Shown: in pieces, positions 11,836-28,868 of the stretch | Position numbering within the stretch: position 1 is the first letter of the stretch | Layout: each line of letters begins with the position of its first letter | DNA from: Archaeoglobi archaeon | Lineage (GTDB): Archaea > Halobacteriota > Archaeoglobi > Archaeoglobales > Archaeoglobaceae | Length of the DNA stretch: 40,132 nt | Reading direction: 5' to 3' | NCBI GenBank assembly: GCA_029259345.1 | Contig: JAPDIX010000046.1 | Span: forward strand, 1 to 40,132 | Notes under the pieces: generated by a model | The model's database searches: none | What the model was told of the DNA's origin: nothing | What the model saw: only the letters and a program-made list of their open reading frames with translations | Made by a program: the position numbers and the translations under genes

Positions 11836-12741
11836 ATGCGAAAGCTGGCAATCATTCTGCTACTTGCCATACTTTTACTGGGATGCAGTCAATCCGAGCA
11901 GCCGGAAAAGATTAGAGTGGGAATACTGCCAATAGAGGACTCTCTTCCCATAGTGGTTGCAGATGAACAAGGATTTTTCGAAAAGAATGGGCTTGACGTT
12001 GAGGTGATTCAGTTCTCAAGTGCTGTTGAGAGAGATGCTGCGCTAACTGCTGGAGAGGTTGATGTGGTTGTAACTGACCCGCTTGCAGTGATACTGCTGA
12101 GAGACAAAGGCTATGACGTCAGAATTGCGTCACTGTGCCTCGGAAAGACGCCCAAAGAGGGTGTTTTCGCAATACTCGCCTCACCAAACTCGGAAATCGA
12201 AACAGTGGAAGACCTGAACGGAAAGGAGATAGCTGTATCGCTTAACACGATAATAGAGTATGCACTGGACGTCATGCAGTCTGAATACAACGTAAGCTAC
12301 ACCAAAGTCTCCATTCCGAAGATACCGGTGAGAATGCAGGCACTGCTGAACGGAAACATTGAGGTCGCAGTCCTGCCAGAACCCCTGGCGAGTTATGCTG
12401 TCAGCAAAGGTGCCAGGTTAATCCTGAGTGATGCCATGCTGAACGAGAGCATCACCCAGACGGTCATGGTCTTCAGAGGGGACGTTGAGAAAGAAAAGGT
12501 TCAGAAGTTTTTGGAAGCATACAGAGAAGCTGTGAAGGAGATAAACTCGAATAAGGAGAAATACAGAGAAAAGTTCATTGAGATTGCACGAGTTCCCGAA
12601 GATATTGCGGGAAGCTATCCAATTCCCGATTACCCAGAGCCACAGCAGCTACCAAAGGAGTACTACGACCGCTACCTTGAGTGGGCCATGCAGAAGGGGC
12701 TGATTGAGAAGGAGGTGCCCTACGAAGAGGCTATCATATGA
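11836..12741 (+). CDS. ABC transporter substrate-binding lipoprotein (NMT1/SsuA-like)
   Basis: A 301-residue binding protein. Residues 1-17 are a lipoprotein signal with lipobox LLGC, cysteine 17 being the lipidation site. The mature part IRVGILPIEDSLPIVVADEQGFFEKNGLDVEV is the standard opening of the NMT1/SsuA/TauA family, and AALTAGEVDVVVTDPLAVI and VAVLPEPLASYAVSKGARL are typical ligand-lobe segments. Ligands in the family include sulfonates, nitrate, taurine and pyrimidine precursors of thiamine; this one is not assignable. The stop overlaps the ATPase start by four bases, so it is the first gene of a three-gene importer operon. Confidence 0.88.
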   Translation: MRKLAIILLLAILLLGCSQSEQPEKIRVGILPIEDSLPIVVADEQGFFEKNGLDVEVIQFSSAVERDAALTAGEVDVVVTDPLAVILLRDKGYDVRIASLCLGKTPKEGVFAILASPNSEIETVEDLNGKEIAVSLNTIIEYALDVMQSEYNVSYTKVSIPKIPVRMQALLNGNIEVAVLPEPLASYAVSKGARLILSDAMLNESITQTVMVFRGDVEKEKVQKFLEAYREAVKEINSNKEKYREKFIEIARVPEDIAGSYPIPDYPEPQQLPKEYYDRYLEWAMQKGLIEKEVPYEEAII

Positions 12742-13469
12742 TTTCAGTAAAGAACATTTCAAAATTTTTTGAGGACATAAAAGCCCTGGATGGCGTAACC
12801 TTTGAGGTTGAAAGAGGAGAAAGCTGCGCCATTATTGGCCCTTCGGGCTGTGGGAAGTCAACACTCCTGCTGATTATGGCAGGGATCCTCGAACCCTCAG
12901 AAGGAGAAGTAAAGGTTGATGGCAAAACAGTCAACTCCCCTCTGAGAAGCGTTGCTCTAATTCTCCAGGATTTTGGACTCTTTCCCTGGAAGACCGTTTA
13001 CGATAACGTTGCTCTTGGTTTGAGGCTCAGAGGTGTTGATAGAAAAACTGAAAAGAGAAGGGTTGAAGAACTCCTCAAAAAATTTGGTCTTCTTGGCTTT
13101 GAGAGGGCTTATCCCAAACAGCTAAGTGGTGGGATGAAGCAGAGAGTTGCCATAGCCAGAGCAATAGCCATTGAACCTCAAATCTTGCTGATGGATGAAC
13201 CCCTGTCCTCGCTCGATGCTCTGTCGAGAGAGGAAATGCAAAACTTCCTTCTCAAGCTCTGGAAAGAAACAGGAACAACAATGGTTCTGGTGACGCACAG
13301 TATAGAGGAGGCGGTGTTTCTGGGAAAAAAGATAGTGGTTCTGACAGAAAGACCAGGGAAGATTAAGGCGGTTGTGGAGAATAAAGAGGTTGGAGATGAA
13401 AGTTACAGGCACGAAGAGGTGTTTTTTGAAAGATGCAAGCTTCTGAGACGAATTATAAGGGCTACCTGA
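12738..13469 (+). CDS. ABC transporter ATP-binding protein (SsuB/TauB-like)
   Basis: A 243-residue nucleotide-binding subunit with every motif intact: Walker A GPSGCGKST, Q-loop LILQDFGLFPWKTVYDN, signature LSGGMKQRVAIARA, Walker B ILLMDEPLSSLD and switch histidine in LVTHSIEEAV. The Q-loop FPWKT form is typical of the nitrate/sulfonate/taurine importers. It powers uptake through the permease encoded next. The ATGA overlap with the upstream gene and a 37-base overlap with the permease gene show a tightly packed operon. Confidence 0.92.
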   Translation: MISVKNISKFFEDIKALDGVTFEVERGESCAIIGPSGCGKSTLLLIMAGILEPSEGEVKVDGKTVNSPLRSVALILQDFGLFPWKTVYDNVALGLRLRGVDRKTEKRRVEELLKKFGLLGFERAYPKQLSGGMKQRVAIARAIAIEPQILLMDEPLSSLDALSREEMQNFLLKLWKETGTTMVLVTHSIEEAVFLGKKIVVLTERPGKIKAVVENKEVGDESYRHEEVFFERCKLLRRIIRAT

Positions 13470-14167
13470 TAACTCTGCTCTCCCTTCTCCTTCTGTGGGA
13501 AGTTGCAAGCTACTTAATTAGTAATCCAGCTCTACCAAACCCAATTGACGTGCTGGCTCTGATGCTATCTCGCAGAGGGCTATTAAGCCACACAGCGATG
13601 AGTTTACTTAGAGTTATCTACTCTCTTGCCCTAGCCCTTTCTCTCGCGTTTCCTGCTGGGATATTCAGCCGTGAGAAGATCGTTGATACTGCAATCTCCC
13701 CAGTAATCTACCTTCTCTACCCCATCCCACATATAGTTCTTCTCCCCCTTTACATCCTCATTTTCGGAATAGGTGACCTTTCGAGAGTTCTGCTCATCGC
13801 AACCATTCTTTTCTTCCAGATTGCAGTCACGACCAGAGACGCGGCAAAGCAGGTGAGCGATTACTATATATACTCAATCTTGTCACTGGGAGCTTCAAAG
13901 CTCGACATTTACAGACATGTCATTATTCCAGCAGTCATGCCAAAAATCATGACAGCTTTAAGAATAAGCATAGGGACTGCGATAGCAGTTTTATTCTTTG
14001 CCGAAAGCTTTGCCACGACGAGCGGGTTGGGGTATTTGATAATCGACTCCTGGAGCAGGGCGGATTACAAGATGATGTATGCGGCAATAACCACAATGGC
14101 TCTTCTCGGCTTCATCCTATATGTTATTGTGGAGAGCATTGAAAGAAGAGTTTGCAGGTGGATGTAG
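13433..14167 (+). CDS. ABC transporter permease (SsuC/TauC-like)
   Basis: A 244-residue integral membrane protein with about six hydrophobic segments (for example residues 8-25 and 52-72). The cytoplasmic EAA loop reads SLGASKLDIYRHVIIPAVMPKI, the coupling helix that contacts the ATPase. It ends with a final membrane segment around ALLGFILYVIVESIERR. It forms the channel of the importer. The start at 13433 lies inside the ATPase gene; a later start would lose little of the protein. Confidence 0.9.
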   Translation: MQASETNYKGYLITLLSLLLLWEVASYLISNPALPNPIDVLALMLSRRGLLSHTAMSLLRVIYSLALALSLAFPAGIFSREKIVDTAISPVIYLLYPIPHIVLLPLYILIFGIGDLSRVLLIATILFFQIAVTTRDAAKQVSDYYIYSILSLGASKLDIYRHVIIPAVMPKIMTALRISIGTAIAVLFFAESFATTSGLGYLIIDSWSRADYKMMYAAITTMALLGFILYVIVESIERRVCRWM

Positions 14168-14184
14168 CCAGTATTATCATGTAT

Positions 14185-14457
14185 TCACGTCTCCCTCCCC
14201 GCCAGAGTCTTAAACCTCTGGATTGTCTCTTGAAGTTCCCTTTCAAGCTCCTCAGCTGAGAATTTCTGTCCCTTCATATCCCTAAGAAGGTCTAGTTCCT
14301 CCTCTTCCTTTATTTCAACTTCCCTTGCAATGGTTGAGATTAAATCCAAGATTTTCTGGCCAATTCTGCTCAACGCCTGACAAGCGGAGACGTATAAAGG
14401 CTGTAACACGTCTGAGTGTTTTGAAGTCACATGAGTTTTTACAGAGCTTATGTTCAA
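14185..14457 (-). pseudogene. Chimeric relic of archaellum-operon genes (arlJ piece joined to the acidic protein's C-terminus)
   Basis: An open 90-codon reading frame that is almost certainly not an original gene. Its C-terminal half matches the end of the 216-residue acidic protein at 26545-27195: the stretch REVEIKEEEELDLLRDMK and what follows is nearly identical, and 56 bases are identical (14264-14319 versus 26615-26670). Just upstream, bases 14346-14378 match arlJ at 27853-27886 apart from one missing T and one substitution (ALSRIGQKIL here, ALSRIDQKNL in ArlJ). About 1.15 kb that separates these parts in the intact locus is missing. The first 26 or so codons match neither. It is inferred to be a remnant of a duplicated archaellum operon fused by deletion. 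Confidence 0.75.
14264..14319 (-). repeat. 56-bp exact repeat, copy 1
   Basis: Identical to 26615-26670 inside the acidic membrane-protein gene. Similarity continues at lower identity on both sides (to about 14200 and about 14345). Confidence 0.9.
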
Positions 14458-14483
14458 CTCAAAGTGCCAAAATCCCTCAACAA

Positions 14484-14491
14484 GATTTTTT
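14484..14491 (+). repeat. Target site duplication, left
   Basis: The octamer gatttttt directly precedes the left end of the insertion sequence and recurs directly after its right end at 15743-15750. Confidence 0.85.
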
Positions 14492-15742
14492 GGCCCTGTT
14501 TCATCATACTTGGAATTTCACCTCCACCATATAACCCTTACCAACTAACTCCCGAATAAACGACTCATACCTCTCCCTTTCAGCATACCTTCTCAGCAGC
14601 AAATTCAGCAGATTTCTGGCACCTCTAACACTCCAAGACATCCATTTATTCTTCATCCTCTTCGCTATCTCGCCCATTAACCTCTCCATCCAGTTGTTGT
14701 GCCAAGGAATTGCTATCCCTTCAAGCCTCTTGTATGCAAACAAAAGAATGTTCTTCATATGCCTTTTGAAGAACCTTGAAACCCTCCAATAACCTTTCGA
14801 TTCCATCTCCTCAGCAAATTCACTCAGAGCCTTCTCTGCTTTCTTAATTCTGCTCTTTAGATCTGACTTGTCAAGAGAGTTCTTAAGCCTCAGCAAAATC
14901 CCTTTAACTTCATTCACATACCTCTTTCTCGTTTCGAGGTCAACTCCATGCTGCCATAGCTTGTAGTTAACTTCTCTCCAGACGTGAATCAAGTCGATCT
15001 GCCTTTCTTCAAAGCAGCTGAGGTCTTTGTCGGCATCTCCTACGACTGCTGCTTTGATGTCGTGATTCTCCTTCATTTCCCTATAGCCTTCGTTGACTCC
15101 AACGATGACACTTCTTCCAGCGATAACCTTTACATCGAGCTTTCCTGAACCAGAGTTGGGATTAACATGGAGCTTTGTTCCATCAGCTGAAACGAAGCTT
15201 TCGTATTCAAACGATTCTTTTTCTCCTTCCATTCCAAGCTCCTGCACCCTCCTCCATATCGTGAGATGGGATGGAGACTCTGTTATTCTCTCAAGTCTCT
15301 GCCTTGATTCCTTTAGCATGGATAAAGCATAATCGACAGCTATTGCAGCTATGTCTGGTTGATATAGCCTTCTCTCATCGAATTCTATCAGGTTATAGAG
15401 AGGGCAGAAAGTTCTGCCACTCGATTTTTCCTTGACTCTTGTAACGCTGAAGGTTGTCTTTCCAAGCTGCGTTACAATCGTCCTCTCTTCCTTGCTGTGC
15501 TTGTGGTAATCGTTTTTTCCGTATCCTTTCTGCATTGAGGAGATCAGAACGCTGTCTATTTCCTCCAGAACTCTTCCCAGAATTGCAGCTTCAATTCCCT
15601 TTAAAGCAGATGTCAGCTCCTGAATGGGAATCTTTTTATTCTGGATGTCTATTGTTAGCTGTAGTGGAATTTCTATTTGCAGCTGCATGGGTGGGGTTGA
15701 ATCCCTGCCCTTTTTAATTTCCAAGGAAGATGTAACAGCACC
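14492..15742 (-). mobile_element. Insertion sequence, ISH6-like, complete
   Basis: A 1251-bp element. The ends are imperfect inverted repeats of 24 bp, 14492-14515 and 15719-15742, agreeing at 19 of 24 positions and both beginning GG. An 8-bp direct repeat (gatttttt) flanks it. One transposase fills it on the minus strand. The 8-bp duplication and terminus type fit the ISH6 family as I know it; a database comparison would settle the family. Intact ends, flanks and reading frame point to a fairly recent insertion next to the archaellum relic. Confidence 0.88.
14504..15724 (-). CDS. Transposase, ISH6-like DDE type
   Basis: A 406-residue transposase occupying the insertion sequence. A candidate DDE triad is visible: D in FVSADGTKLHVNPN, D in KAAVVGDADKDLSCF, and E in NNWMERLMGEIAKRMKNKW near the end. 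An N-terminal region with SHLTIWRRVQELG resembles a helix-turn-helix that would bind the ends. The frame is uninterrupted, so the enzyme may be active. The reading frame covers parts of both terminal repeats, and the stop codon lies 12 bases inside the left end. ISLre2 (UPF0236) is the alternative family, but its members usually make 9-bp duplications. Confidence 0.85.
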   Translation of the reverse strand: MEIKKGRDSTPPMQLQIEIPLQLTIDIQNKKIPIQELTSALKGIEAAILGRVLEEIDSVLISSMQKGYGKNDYHKHSKEERTIVTQLGKTTFSVTRVKEKSSGRTFCPLYNLIEFDERRLYQPDIAAIAVDYALSMLKESRQRLERITESPSHLTIWRRVQELGMEGEKESFEYESFVSADGTKLHVNPNSGSGKLDVKVIAGRSVIVGVNEGYREMKENHDIKAAVVGDADKDLSCFEERQIDLIHVWREVNYKLWQHGVDLETRKRYVNEVKGILLRLKNSLDKSDLKSRIKKAEKALSEFAEEMESKGYWRVSRFFKRHMKNILLFAYKRLEGIAIPWHNNWMERLMGEIAKRMKNKWMSWSVRGARNLLNLLLRRYAERERYESFIRELVGKGYMVEVKFQV

Positions 15743-15750
15743 GATTTTTT
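15719..15750. repeat. Right terminal inverted repeat and right target duplication
   Basis: Bases 15719-15742 are the right 24-bp inverted repeat (partner 14492-14515); 15743-15750 is the second gatttttt target copy. Confidence 0.85.
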
Positions 15751-15915
15751 AGTCCCCTATTAAATAGAGTTCATCCTGAAAGACGATAACAAATAAATAA
15801 GTATATCTTCATTGAGAGTGGAACTTTTGTAGTGTTAACCATCCATTCTCTCCATTAGCCCATAGCCTATACAAAACTGTCTTGAATTTTATCACTTAAA
15901 TATAATAAAAAATTA

Positions 15916-18076: not shown

Positions 18077-18376
18077 TCAGCCCTCCTCCACATCCTGAAC
18101 TTCATTTAACACTTCTAATAAAATACGCAGTATCCGATCACCCCTCGGTGTCAGGACATAATTATTATTTTCTTTTTCGATTATATCGTAGCTGGACAAA
18201 GATTTCAGCAATCTGCTAAGGACACTCGGACTGAGCCTCGACTCGAACATCAGCTCACTGAAACCCGCTGGAGTTTTACGTAAGATTATAAGAATTTTAA
18301 GTGAACCGGGATGGGTTACCGTTTTATACACATCCATCTTTCCGTTGAGTTCACACACCCCCATCATTTCGATCAT
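18077..18376 (-). CDS. Winged-helix transcriptional regulator
   Basis: A 99-residue protein whose body is one winged helix-turn-helix. The opening KTVTHPGSLKILIILRKTPAGFSELM, the recognition-helix region SRLSPSVLSRLLKSLSSYDII and the wing KENNNYVLTPRGDRIL match ArsR/PadR/MarR-like archaeal regulators. No metal-binding cysteine pair or ligand domain is visible; the single cysteine is at the N-terminus. It faces the VapBC-like pair across a 122-base divergent promoter region and probably controls its own operon or that pair (inference). Confidence 0.8.
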   Translation of the reverse strand: MIEMMGVCELNGKMDVYKTVTHPGSLKILIILRKTPAGFSELMFESRLSPSVLSRLLKSLSSYDIIEKENNNYVLTPRGDRILRILLEVLNEVQDVEEG

Positions 18377-25725: not shown

Positions 25726-25932
25726 TCACCTCACAAAAAGGGAATTATTTTCCATACTCCCACCATTCGCCATTGTCTCTACATAGCTCTCATACACATC
25801 CACACCTTCAGAGTCAAACACCTTAAAGTTCTCTAAGATTATCTGAAGTGTTTCTGTTGCGATTTTGTTCATCCTCTCCATTGCCATGCTAACTTGCTGA
25901 ACTGCTATAGTAGTAGATAATAATAAACTCAT
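25726..25932 (-). CDS. Small unknown protein at the head of the che operon
   Basis: Not recognised. From the preferred ATG (ggtgagatt upstream) 68 residues; an ATG five codons and a TTG nine codons further upstream are also in frame. The first half (SLLLSTTIAVQQVSMAMERMNKIATETLQIIL) is a mildly hydrophobic amphipathic helix that could lie on a membrane or form a coiled coil; the end is acidic and polar (SEGVDVYESYVETMANGGSM). It is followed six bases later by cheW, so it belongs to the chemotaxis transcript. A role at the receptor array is plausible but not shown. Confidence 0.6.
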   Translation of the reverse strand: MSLLLSTTIAVQQVSMAMERMNKIATETLQIILENFKVFDSEGVDVYESYVETMANGGSMENNSLFVR

Positions 25933-25987
25933 AATCTCACCACCCATGATACCACCCAATTGTTGGTTGTTGAAATAAAAAATAAAA

Positions 25988-26041
25988 TTTTCTTTATAGA
26001 GTAAAATTCCTAATAAGAAAATACAAAAGTGAAATCACTTT
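25988..26041 (-). promoter_or_regulatory. Promoter region of the che operon with a 16-bp palindrome
   Basis: Read on the minus strand, a TATA-like box (ctctataaag) lies at about 25990-26001. About 25 bases further upstream is the palindrome aaagtga-aa-tcacttt (26026-26041), seven-base arms around two bases. The placement upstream of the box suits an activator site. Together they suggest an independent promoter for the chemotaxis genes. Confidence 0.45.
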
Positions 26042-26095
26042 AGAAGAACATATGTAATAAACTTTTATGCAGGTATGCTTGTTGCTGCTATAGTT

Positions 26096-26538
26096 TTATT
26101 GATCTTGAGAAGATAGCCACATTTCAAGATATTCGATTGCCCTTGAAAGAACGAGAACCATATCCTTCAGCATCTGAATTGTCTCTTCGTCAGCCTCTCT
26201 TAGATAATACATACGCACAGAAAGAGTCTTCCCAAGAGTGGCAAGGTGATAAGGTACTTGTGCTCTACCCTTTTACAATCACAACTTTTTTTGTGTACAC
26301 TATGTTGAATACTTTCGGACGATACCTCAAGTATCCGCAACTCATAACGTTTTCGCCCATGCGATAGTGTTCAACCCGTTTTACCAGAAACAACAATAGC
26401 TGTGCAGCTTTCATTTTCAAATACTTGATCGCAGAAAAAATCTAGCATCTTCTCTCTGCTGTTAAACATCCACACATTGCTTGAAAAAGTAAATGCCGTA
26501 AAAAGAAGGTCATTTATTCGGTTTAAACTTCGCTGCAC
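26096..26538 (-). pseudogene. Twice-frameshifted gene after the acidic membrane protein
   Basis: Not recognised. Starting at a GTG six bases after the preceding stop, 55 codons read VQRSLNRINDLLFTAF... to a stop at 26371. The next frame continues sensibly (VEHYRMGENVMSCGYLRYRP...KKVVIVKG) to a stop at 26265. A third frame continues (HLATLGKTLSVRMYYLREAD...AIEYLEMWLSSQDQ) to 26096. Both breaks fall at runs of four identical bases (26379-26382 and 26271-26274), and deleting one base at each gives a continuous 146-residue frame (441 bases). The rebuilt protein is soluble, with a helical end. It is either a decayed gene or carries sequencing errors. Confidence 0.6.
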
Positions 26539-26544
26539 ATCATC

Positions 26545-27195
26545 TCACCCCTGCAGAGCTTTCAATCGCTGAAGCGCCTCTTCAAGCTCTTTTTTAAGTT
26601 CTTCTGCTGAGAACTTCTGTCCCTTCATATCCCTAAGAAGGTCTAGTTCCTCCTCTTCCTTTATTTCAACCTCTTTTGCTATGCTTGAAATAAGATCATC
26701 CTCTTCATCAAAATCTACTTCCTCTACCTCCTCTTCCTCCTCATCTTCACTCTCTGGTTCAAGCTTTATTTCGTTCTCCAAGCCACCAACATCCACATCA
26801 AGGTCATAGTTTAGTTCCGGAAGTTCAGGAATATCAGGAAGATTTGTTGTTTCTTCACTTTCAGTTTCTGGAAGTTCTGGTTCGAGAGTGCTTGCAGTTT
26901 CCATTTCTTCAAGCAGATTTTCGTCTATCTGCACAGTCTTAGCAGCATCGTCCAGTGGGACTATTTTCTCCACTACTTTACTCTCTATTTCTTCCCTCTT
27001 ACTAACTCCAGATGATACAACTTCCTCCAGTTTTTCATCCACTTCCTTTAACTTTTCCTCAACCTCTTTTTTTCTCGAAAAACTGAGTTTCGGCATTTTC
27101 AGTCTCTTCAACACATCAATACCCATCTTGTCGTATATATACGGCAGAGCCAGAATGATTGCTGCGAAAACAATACCGACTACCAACTCGATCAT
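26545..27195 (-). CDS. Acidic membrane-anchored coiled-coil protein of the archaellum locus
   Basis: Family not recognised. A 216-residue protein: residues 2-20 (IELVVGIVFAAIILALPYI) form one membrane anchor, followed by a basic patch, a lysine/glutamate coiled coil (SRKKEVEEKLKEVDEKLEEV), a long very acidic and low-complexity section (SEDEEEEEVEEVDFDEEDD), and a C-terminal helix (EVEIKEEEELDLLRDMKGQK to the end). It follows arlJ by 14 bases with gaggtgagaggat before its ATG, so it belongs to the archaellum operon. It might be a stator, scaffold or adaptor between motor and chemotaxis array. Its C-terminus is duplicated in the relic near 14200. Confidence 0.72.
   Translation of the reverse strand: MIELVVGIVFAAIILALPYIYDKMGIDVLKRLKMPKLSFSRKKEVEEKLKEVDEKLEEVVSSGVSKREEIESKVVEKIVPLDDAAKTVQIDENLLEEMETASTLEPELPETESEETTNLPDIPELPELNYDLDVDVGGLENEIKLEPESEDEEEEEVEEVDFDEEDDLISSIAKEVEIKEEEELDLLRDMKGQKFSAEELKKELEEALQRLKALQG
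26615..26670 (-). repeat. 56-bp exact repeat, copy 2
   Basis: Identical to 14264-14319 in the chimeric relic. It encodes the conserved C-terminal helix of the acidic protein. Confidence 0.9.
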
Positions 27196-27209: not shown

Positions 27210-28859
27210 TCATGTCTCCATAAATGAGGGTAGAGTAAACGCCCATTTGACGGCTGACGGAACGACAAGTATTAAAATTCCTGACAAAAACAGGAAAATT
27301 ACTGCATAGTACAGATAAAGGTATTTTCCTCCACCCTTAACGATGTTGGCTGAAAGAGTATTCGCAAATGTCAGAGAAACTATTATCATAAGCGAGTACT
27401 GGTTGAGGAGATCAACGGGTATTCCTGAGAATATCCCTATGTTCAACCCCTGCAACCCACCGGGAACTTTGCTGAACACCTCTCCAGTGCCAACACCTCC
27501 AAGTTGGGTGGCGAAAAGATTTGAGATGTATTCCGAGAATATGGCGAGTATTTGGGTTACGAACAGAACGAGAGAAACCATGGCGATGTGGAGCGGAATT
27601 ATTAGGTTTACAAATCCCGAGGATATTAAATCTCTCTTTAACCTCAGCAGAACCATCTCCAGGTTTGATGATGAGACAATCTCTCCAACGACGTCAGCAT
27701 CACCGCCGAGATCGGTTGCATCAACAAATATCGCCGTCAGTTTTGAGATTAGGTAGCTCCCGCTCTCGCCAACAAATTTTTCCCATGAAAATCCTGGATC
27801 CAGACCCATTGAAAGCCTCCTGTAAAGCTGCATCACGAGTTCTTTAAGCTCTCCAAGATTTTTCTGGTCAATTCTGCTCAACGCCTCAGCCACTGAAACA
27901 CCCGCACCAGCCTTTATCGCTCCAAGACTTCGAATAAAGGACGTAAAGGCTTCATCCCTTCTGCTGACCTTAATATCATCAACCCTCGCCAGATATCCGA
28001 TCGGTAGGAGTAAAATCCCTGCTAGAAGGAATCCCAGCCCCCTGTAATCCGCCCCTTGTAGCAATCCGAGATTCAAAATTCCTGTTTCGAGATTAAACAC
28101 GGTTGGTAGGATTGAAAAGAATGTAATCACCATTAAAGAGATCGGGAACAGTACTGGAGCAAGTCGTGAGATCGTAACCTGCTCTTTTGACTTAATCCTC
28201 ATCTCATGAACCTTTCTATCTTTGGGAACTGCTTTGAAGAGCATAAAAACTCCAAACATGGCAATCGCGAAGTTTCCAAAAGCGGAGGCAATTAAAGTCA
28301 TTCCTGGGTCACCTGTACTGTATATGACCACCGAAAGCAGAACCACAACCGATATCAGCGATGCCGAAACAAGAAGGGATGTGTAAGCATCGCTCCATTT
28401 TCTCAGACTTTCGAGGTTTCGCTCGTACTCATCCTTTCTTACTGTTTTGAATGTTCTCCACTCCCTTTCGAGGAACTCATCGTCCGGCTCTCCTGCTGCT
28501 ATCGCATTTGAAAGTCTGTTGAACAGCTTTTTCAACCTCTCATGCTTGATCTTCTCTGCAACCAGTTCACAGGCTGTGGCGTAGTCATAGTGCCATTTCT
28601 GGGTTAAGTCTCTTACCCTTCTGAAATACTTGCTCGGAGCATACTCTTCCTTTTCTGAAGCCATCTCGAAAATCTTGTCTCTACTCAAGTTTGCAGTGGA
28701 TAAAGAAGCCATGTAGGTCAGCATGAATAGTAGGTCATTATCCATTAGAAGTTCCTTACCTGAACTCCTGAGAATATCCAGAATGCGACCTAAGGCTGGC
28801 AATTTTCCGAATTTTTGTCCGGTTAATATCTTTGGAACTTTTGTCGTCTTGAACTCCAT
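27210..28859 (-). CDS. arlJ: Archaellum assembly membrane protein ArlJ (FlaJ)
   Basis: About 549 residues. An N-terminal cytoplasmic part (residues 1-160, with the YFRRVRDLTQKWHYDYATACE region) is followed by about nine membrane segments in clusters and two TadC/GspF-like cytoplasmic loops (SRRDEAFTSFIRSLGAIKAGAGVSVAEAL and FVDATDLGGDADVVGEIV). ArlJ is the membrane platform on which ArlI and ArlH assemble. The ATG at 28859 has ggtgat upstream; two earlier in-frame starts (28865, 28868) lie right after the arlI stop. Confidence 0.93.
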   Translation of the reverse strand: MEFKTTKVPKILTGQKFGKLPALGRILDILRSSGKELLMDNDLLFMLTYMASLSTANLSRDKIFEMASEKEEYAPSKYFRRVRDLTQKWHYDYATACELVAEKIKHERLKKLFNRLSNAIAAGEPDDEFLEREWRTFKTVRKDEYERNLESLRKWSDAYTSLLVSASLISVVVLLSVVIYSTGDPGMTLIASAFGNFAIAMFGVFMLFKAVPKDRKVHEMRIKSKEQVTISRLAPVLFPISLMVITFFSILPTVFNLETGILNLGLLQGADYRGLGFLLAGILLLPIGYLARVDDIKVSRRDEAFTSFIRSLGAIKAGAGVSVAEALSRIDQKNLGELKELVMQLYRRLSMGLDPGFSWEKFVGESGSYLISKLTAIFVDATDLGGDADVVGEIVSSSNLEMVLLRLKRDLISSGFVNLIIPLHIAMVSLVLFVTQILAIFSEYISNLFATQLGGVGTGEVFSKVPGGLQGLNIGIFSGIPVDLLNQYSLMIIVSLTFANTLSANIVKGGGKYLYLYYAVIFLFLSGILILVVPSAVKWAFTLPSFMET

Positions 28860-28868
28860 CTCCATCAC

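Follow-up and report, generated by a model that had tools for sequence, protein, structure and literature searches.

In Archaeoglobales, archaellum loci are reported to have been displaced by transferred ones (PMC4858521). In the displaced or duplicated archaellum (fla/arl) loci of Archaeoglobales and Methanosarcina, two divergent copies meet in one lineage, and one of them may be lost (PMC4858521, PMC1914349). When a pseudogene and its functional paralogue undergo gene conversion, they come to share an identical tract, to either side of which they diverge. The locus described here resembles both situations. Unlike the whole-locus cases of Archaeoglobales and Methanosarcina, however, the losing copy is kept as 195 bp only, and a short tract was exchanged with the other copy; and unlike in ordinary conversion between a pseudogene and its paralogue, the copies appear to be xenologues with different species affinity.

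The window analysed is the whole stretch of 40,132 bp of contig JAPDIX010000046.1 (assembly GCA_029259345.1, an Archaeoglobi archaeon). Its own genome (G000) comprises 88 contigs and is ~80% complete. Seven congeners were searched for comparison; the labels G001 to G006 are used for relatives, among which G003 is the sister genome. The acidic 216-aa gene directly downstream of arlJ is called arlX here for convenience. We estimate, with a probability of roughly 0.6, that positions 14171-14378 are the dead remnant of a divergent (xenologous, G002/G006-type) second arlJ-arlX end, which would formerly have coexisted with the resident one and then have been converted and deleted at a rearranged site. 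A former second copy is proposed because two non-adjacent pieces keep their native order and orientation and because a conversion tract is present.

Two archaellum gene fragments in native order

The resident arlJ is identified as ArlJ/FlaJ by NCBIfam (751.8 bits, cut-off 570). Parts of arlJ and arlX reappear in a scrap far to the left of the operon (Table 1). Positions 14197-14346 align without gaps to the 3′ end of arlX (26548-26697), with 122 of 150 positions identical (81%, E 5e-37), and the match spans about 50 codons through to the stop codon of arlX itself. Within it, 14264-14319 and 26615-26670 form one unbroken identical run of 56 bp, so that the identity reported in a preliminary description of this DNA is reproduced exactly by base-by-base comparison. 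The arlJ piece named there (14346-14378) also stands, matching the interior of arlJ (27852-27886) at 33 of 35 positions with one gap (E 9e-9). The two pieces keep the order of the operon and its minus-strand orientation, and the 1,155 bp of source sequence absent between them agree with the distance of about 1.15 kb given earlier for the intact locus. The recognisable arl sequence amounts to 195 bp (33 bp of arlJ and ~162 bp of arlX), in which ~1.34 kb of source is represented. Beyond these arlX and arlJ matches, the scrap has no significant match in its own genome (88 contigs, ~80% complete).

A chance or low-complexity match was considered and rejected on the E values, the ~50-codon span and a chance test of the arlJ piece, in which 1,000 random 33-mers from the window gave no comparable score elsewhere in it (best 42.8 versus 51.8 bits). 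The low-complexity explanation, raised in advance as a possible objection, does not apply to a similarity that covers ~50 arlX codons through the stop.

Table 1. Features at the scrap, its flanks and the resident source genes (positions in the window).
Feature	Position	Strand	Remarks
ABC importer permease	13433-14167	+	Left flank of the breakpoint
arl-derived stretch (scrap)	14171-14378		208 bp
Junction stretch	14171-14184	n/a	Between the end of the ABC permease (TAGCC, common to G003 only) and the arlX stop codon of the scrap
arlX′ fragment	14185-14346	-	Final ~53 codons, including the stop, of a putative second arlX copy; free of internal frameshifts and stops
Gene-conversion tract	14264-14319	-	56 bp, identical to 26615-26670
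arlJ′ fragment	14346-14378	-	33/35 to 27852-27886; 1-bp deletion in an A-run; overlaps arlX′ by 2 bp
Winged-helix pseudogene, 5′-truncated part	14379-14491	+	Internal deletion of ~24 bp
ISH6-family insertion sequence	14492-15742	-	1,251 bp; ~27-bp imperfect terminal inverted repeats; splits the winged-helix pseudogene
Transposase ORF	14504-15724	-	ISH6 family, NF041731, 243.7 bits (cut-off 240)
Winged-helix pseudogene, remainder	15751-15820 (end approximate)	+
Resident arlX	26545-27195	-	216 aa; N-terminal hydrophobic segment, acidic middle; G005-like outside the tract; conversion partner
Resident arlJ (archaellar assembly protein ArlJ/FlaJ)	27210-28868	-	G002/G006-like

The scrap is homologous to parts of arlJ and arlX in their native order, and neither an intact gene nor a functional frame is predicted at the site, which appears to hold only fragments and a chance chimeric frame. 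Judged from its sequence, it is a putative pseudogene or relic of arlJ-arlX, well preserved as an evolutionary fossil but not a working gene. It is a relic of the ordinary kind, unusually legible in that conversion tract, breakpoint and insertion can all be read. The preliminary description had treated 14185-14483 as one archaellum relic; this holds for 14171-14378, whereas the sequence from 14379 on belongs to a decayed winged-helix gene.

The 90-codon open frame described earlier does exist (14185-14457, minus strand). Its first ~27 codons run antisense through the winged-helix pseudogene, after which it passes through frameshifted arlJ to the arlX stop; the arlJ piece is one base shorter in an A-run, which puts the frame into that of arlX by chance. 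No family match was obtained, a conserved 90-residue protein was looked for in the relatives and no homologue except arlX itself was found, and no relative came up when named genomes were scanned with the 90-aa ORF. The frame is therefore best regarded as fortuitous, with no predicted function. That it is a real chimeric gene is highly improbable: the frame is open and stops at the arlX position, and its arlX part differs from that of G002 mostly at synonymous positions (11 synonymous and 6 non-synonymous codons), but such an excess is expected anyway if the copy died recently, the start lies inside an antisense pseudogene, the arlJ part is out of frame, and family match and homologue beyond arlX are both wanting. 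Consequently, the ORF should not be called a gene in annotation.

The 56-bp identical tract

A codon-true alignment of the arlX sequences from the scrap, the resident operon and the congeners has 56 columns inside the tract and 82 outside it. Scrap and resident arlX are identical over the 56 columns, and agree at only 67% and 69% on the two flanks. An identical run of 56 was reproduced by none of 100,000 permutations of the mismatches, and the next-longest identical run for any other pair of distinct arlX sequences is 26 bp. Outside the tract, G005 is the nearest sequence to the resident arlX in 96% of resamplings and groups with it at a support of 0.95; the scrap groups with G002/G006 (support 0.93; G002 or G006 nearest in 99% of resamplings), an affinity that rests on 82 columns. 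Inside the tract, scrap and resident arlX are the same and both group with G006 (0.92). The run is thus over-long and has flanks of differing affinity. Because the identical block has divergent flanks with different species affinity, we attribute the 56-bp identity to gene conversion, and not to a young duplication; the two divergent copies involved would once have been present in one genome. Transfer from the second copy to the resident arlX is the more likely direction; with so few columns outside (82) and inside (56) the tract, the direction and the donor are only moderately supported.

These data bear on the earlier claim that the genome once held a second copy of this end of the operon, later deleted down. 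The claim is sustained for a copy of the arlJ-arlX end, for which the native order and the conversion tract speak, but not for a plain duplicate of the present operon, given the 67-69% identity outside the 56 bp and the grouping with other species. An intragenomic duplication could still be proposed in another form, in which the scrap was copied from its own operon while arlX was still G002/G006-like (as arlJ is today) and a G005-like allele later took the place of the resident arlX; the scrap would then preserve the allele that was resident before. Mosaicism is seen in the present operon too, which is G002/G006-like from arlJ to arlF and G005-like in arlX, and the arlJ piece matches the resident arlJ (33/35) more closely than it matches that of any relative (31/35 for G006). 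However, this piece is too short to decide, and the identical 56 bp within divergent copies are left unexplained, so that conversion is needed here too. We consider this account unlikely, though not negligibly so.

Rearranged and interrupted flanks

Two features escaped the preliminary description: the scrap lies on a rearrangement breakpoint, and next to it is a second pseudogene, which is interrupted by an insertion sequence. In the sister genome G003, the importer is followed by rps17e-dapA (contig C46), where the name rps17e is presumed from the sequence of a short ORF, and a 182-aa gene is followed by the winged-helix gene and cheW (contig C21). In the genome under study, the importer, the scrap and the winged-helix/cheW genes follow one another in the window, and the 182-aa gene adjoins rps17e-dapA at C45:8558-8663. 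The flanks are each contiguous with other sequence in G003 and the two junctions form a reciprocal pair; the position of the scrap is exactly that of a breakpoint in the rearranged chromosome. The importer ends in TGGATGTAGCC, bases that are common to G003 and absent from G001, G002, G004 and G006, and therefore the break is placed at 14170/14171. At the reciprocal junction, between the 182-aa gene and rps17e-dapA, lies a filler of 104 bp (C45:8559-8662; locus L095 of G000), which has no match among the sequences compared.

A simple two-break inversion was considered as the full history and is not established; the history is more complex than one inversion, because the 182-aa gene has in its own genome also been parted from its other usual neighbour, MBL. 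At the archaellum cluster's upstream end, G004/G006 carry the 182-aa gene next to a YlbF-like gene (G006 L046:974-1931), and in G003 the 182-aa gene adjoins wHTH-cheW at the opposite cluster end (L039:3597-4466). From this opposite placement, the whole arl-che island therefore appears inverted between congeners.

The position on the breakpoint raises the question whether a second operon copy was ever present. Both arl pieces might instead have been copied into a double-strand break by template switching in end joining, leaving only ~195 bp of patch DNA at the joint. PriSL, the archaeal primase, uses microhomologies of 2-4 bp to join strands, and it also polymerises across discontinuous templates (PMC12019639); primase-dependent end joining of this kind could make such patch DNA. 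The scrap does consist of short pieces with a 2-bp overlap and lies exactly on the breakpoint. Nevertheless, a G002/G006-like arlX template, now gone from the genome, would be needed, and the native order and orientation of the pieces, their divergence and the conversion demand extra assumptions. We regard templated filling as improbable.

On the right, the 5′ truncation of the winged-helix pseudogene falls at the joint with the arlJ piece. Its counterpart of 93 aa is intact in G003 (L039:4185-4466), and a paralogue of this gene lies at window 18077-18376. The element that splits the pseudogene is flanked by 8-bp target duplications, GATTTTTT, at 14484-14491 and 15743-15750. The ISH6 family duplicates an AT-rich 8-bp motif (PMC3942029), and the duplication here fits the published motif AANATNTT only in part. 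With a transposase of the family above the NCBIfam cut-off, imperfect terminal inverted repeats and an AT-rich 8-bp target duplication, the element is like ISH6-family insertion sequences (p-MULT 2, PMC3942029), and unlike the haloarchaeal plasmid ISH6 in that its transposase is only ~30% identical. A second, truncated copy of this element lies elsewhere in the genome (C4:37303-37795; 81% over ~500 bp).

The left flank differs in its affinities from the sequence before it. The window is 85-94% identical to G003 over 2.2-11.5 kb, and the importer (11836-14167) is 86-92% identical to G004/G006 and ~70% to G003; this difference from G003 points to a xenologous replacement in one of the two. G003, otherwise the closest genome left of the importer, has an importer at the equivalent place. 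Arrival of the scrap together with the G004/G006-like importer was considered and is not supported: the last bases of the importer revert to the G003 type before the scrap, and G004 and G006 carry no arl sequence after their importer.

Proposed history of a second copy and state of the resident locus

For the divergent second copy, we infer the following order of events. A foreign-like copy, at least the ~1.34-kb arlJ-arlX end and presumably acquired by transfer, would have coexisted with the resident operon; during this time, conversion would have carried a short part of arlX from one to the other, more likely from the second copy to the resident. The second copy would then have been reduced by an illegitimate, microhomology-type deletion (2-bp overlap), by which 33 bp of arlJ were joined to ~162 bp of arlX, and the scrap would have ended up on the breakpoint between the ABC importer and the decayed winged-helix gene, which the ISH6-family element may have split later.

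A second archaellum operon as such, as first proposed, is not borne out. The seven congeners searched have one arlJ and at most one arlX each, none of them a second; no importer beside an archaellum was found in the other genomes compared, and related genomes, checked for a second operon near the importer, have none there and the importer elsewhere. In the own genome (~80% complete), there are no convincing further arl fragments of a second copy; the only matches were to an arlI-like ATPase on C3 and, weakly, on C65. Neither an intact copy in relatives nor more remnants of the operon were thus found; a complete second operon is unproven because no congener has a second arlJ or arlX, and since only 195 bp remain, a large second operon is indistinguishable from a ~1.3-kb duplicate.

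The best-matching congener changes repeatedly along the window, and the island is strongly mosaic between species: the closest congener is G005 for arlX and G002/G006 from arlJ to arlF, and the chemotaxis block is mostly 92-95% identical to G003 with divergent patches. Interspecies exchange is therefore common at the archaellum/chemotaxis locus. The scrap is probably a physical trace of archaellum-locus exchange between related archaea, comprising a transient second copy, ~56 bp of conversion and a deletion at a breakpoint, and through such traces the proposed displacement of archaellum loci in Archaeoglobales becomes testable at base level. A more specific and tentative reading, which we hold to be possible at best, is that an archaellum-locus swap between species was caught midway and left the scrap as its footprint: an operon imported beside the resident one would have given it the arlJ side and part of arlX before being deleted. 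In that case, conversion in a merodiploid cell, and not simple allelic replacement, assembled the mosaic archaellum of this genome.

The arlX protein has no family match in Pfam and NCBIfam and carries a conserved C-terminus, E-L/I-D-LLRD-x-KGxKFSAEEL. It adjoins arlJ in the congeners searched, and a search of named genomes with the arlX alignment found only Archaeoglobus sp. GB_MAG2_100. Its product is a candidate for an undescribed archaellum component of Archaeoglobales. In the congeners, arlX is followed by a ~225-aa gene, a PAS/MCP transducer of >700 aa and cheW. At 25730-26545 of the window, a frameshifted fragment is left of the ~225-aa gene (about 26120-26548), and only the two ends are left of the transducer (102-codon ORF); therefore, the 3′ end of the resident archaellum cluster is also decaying.
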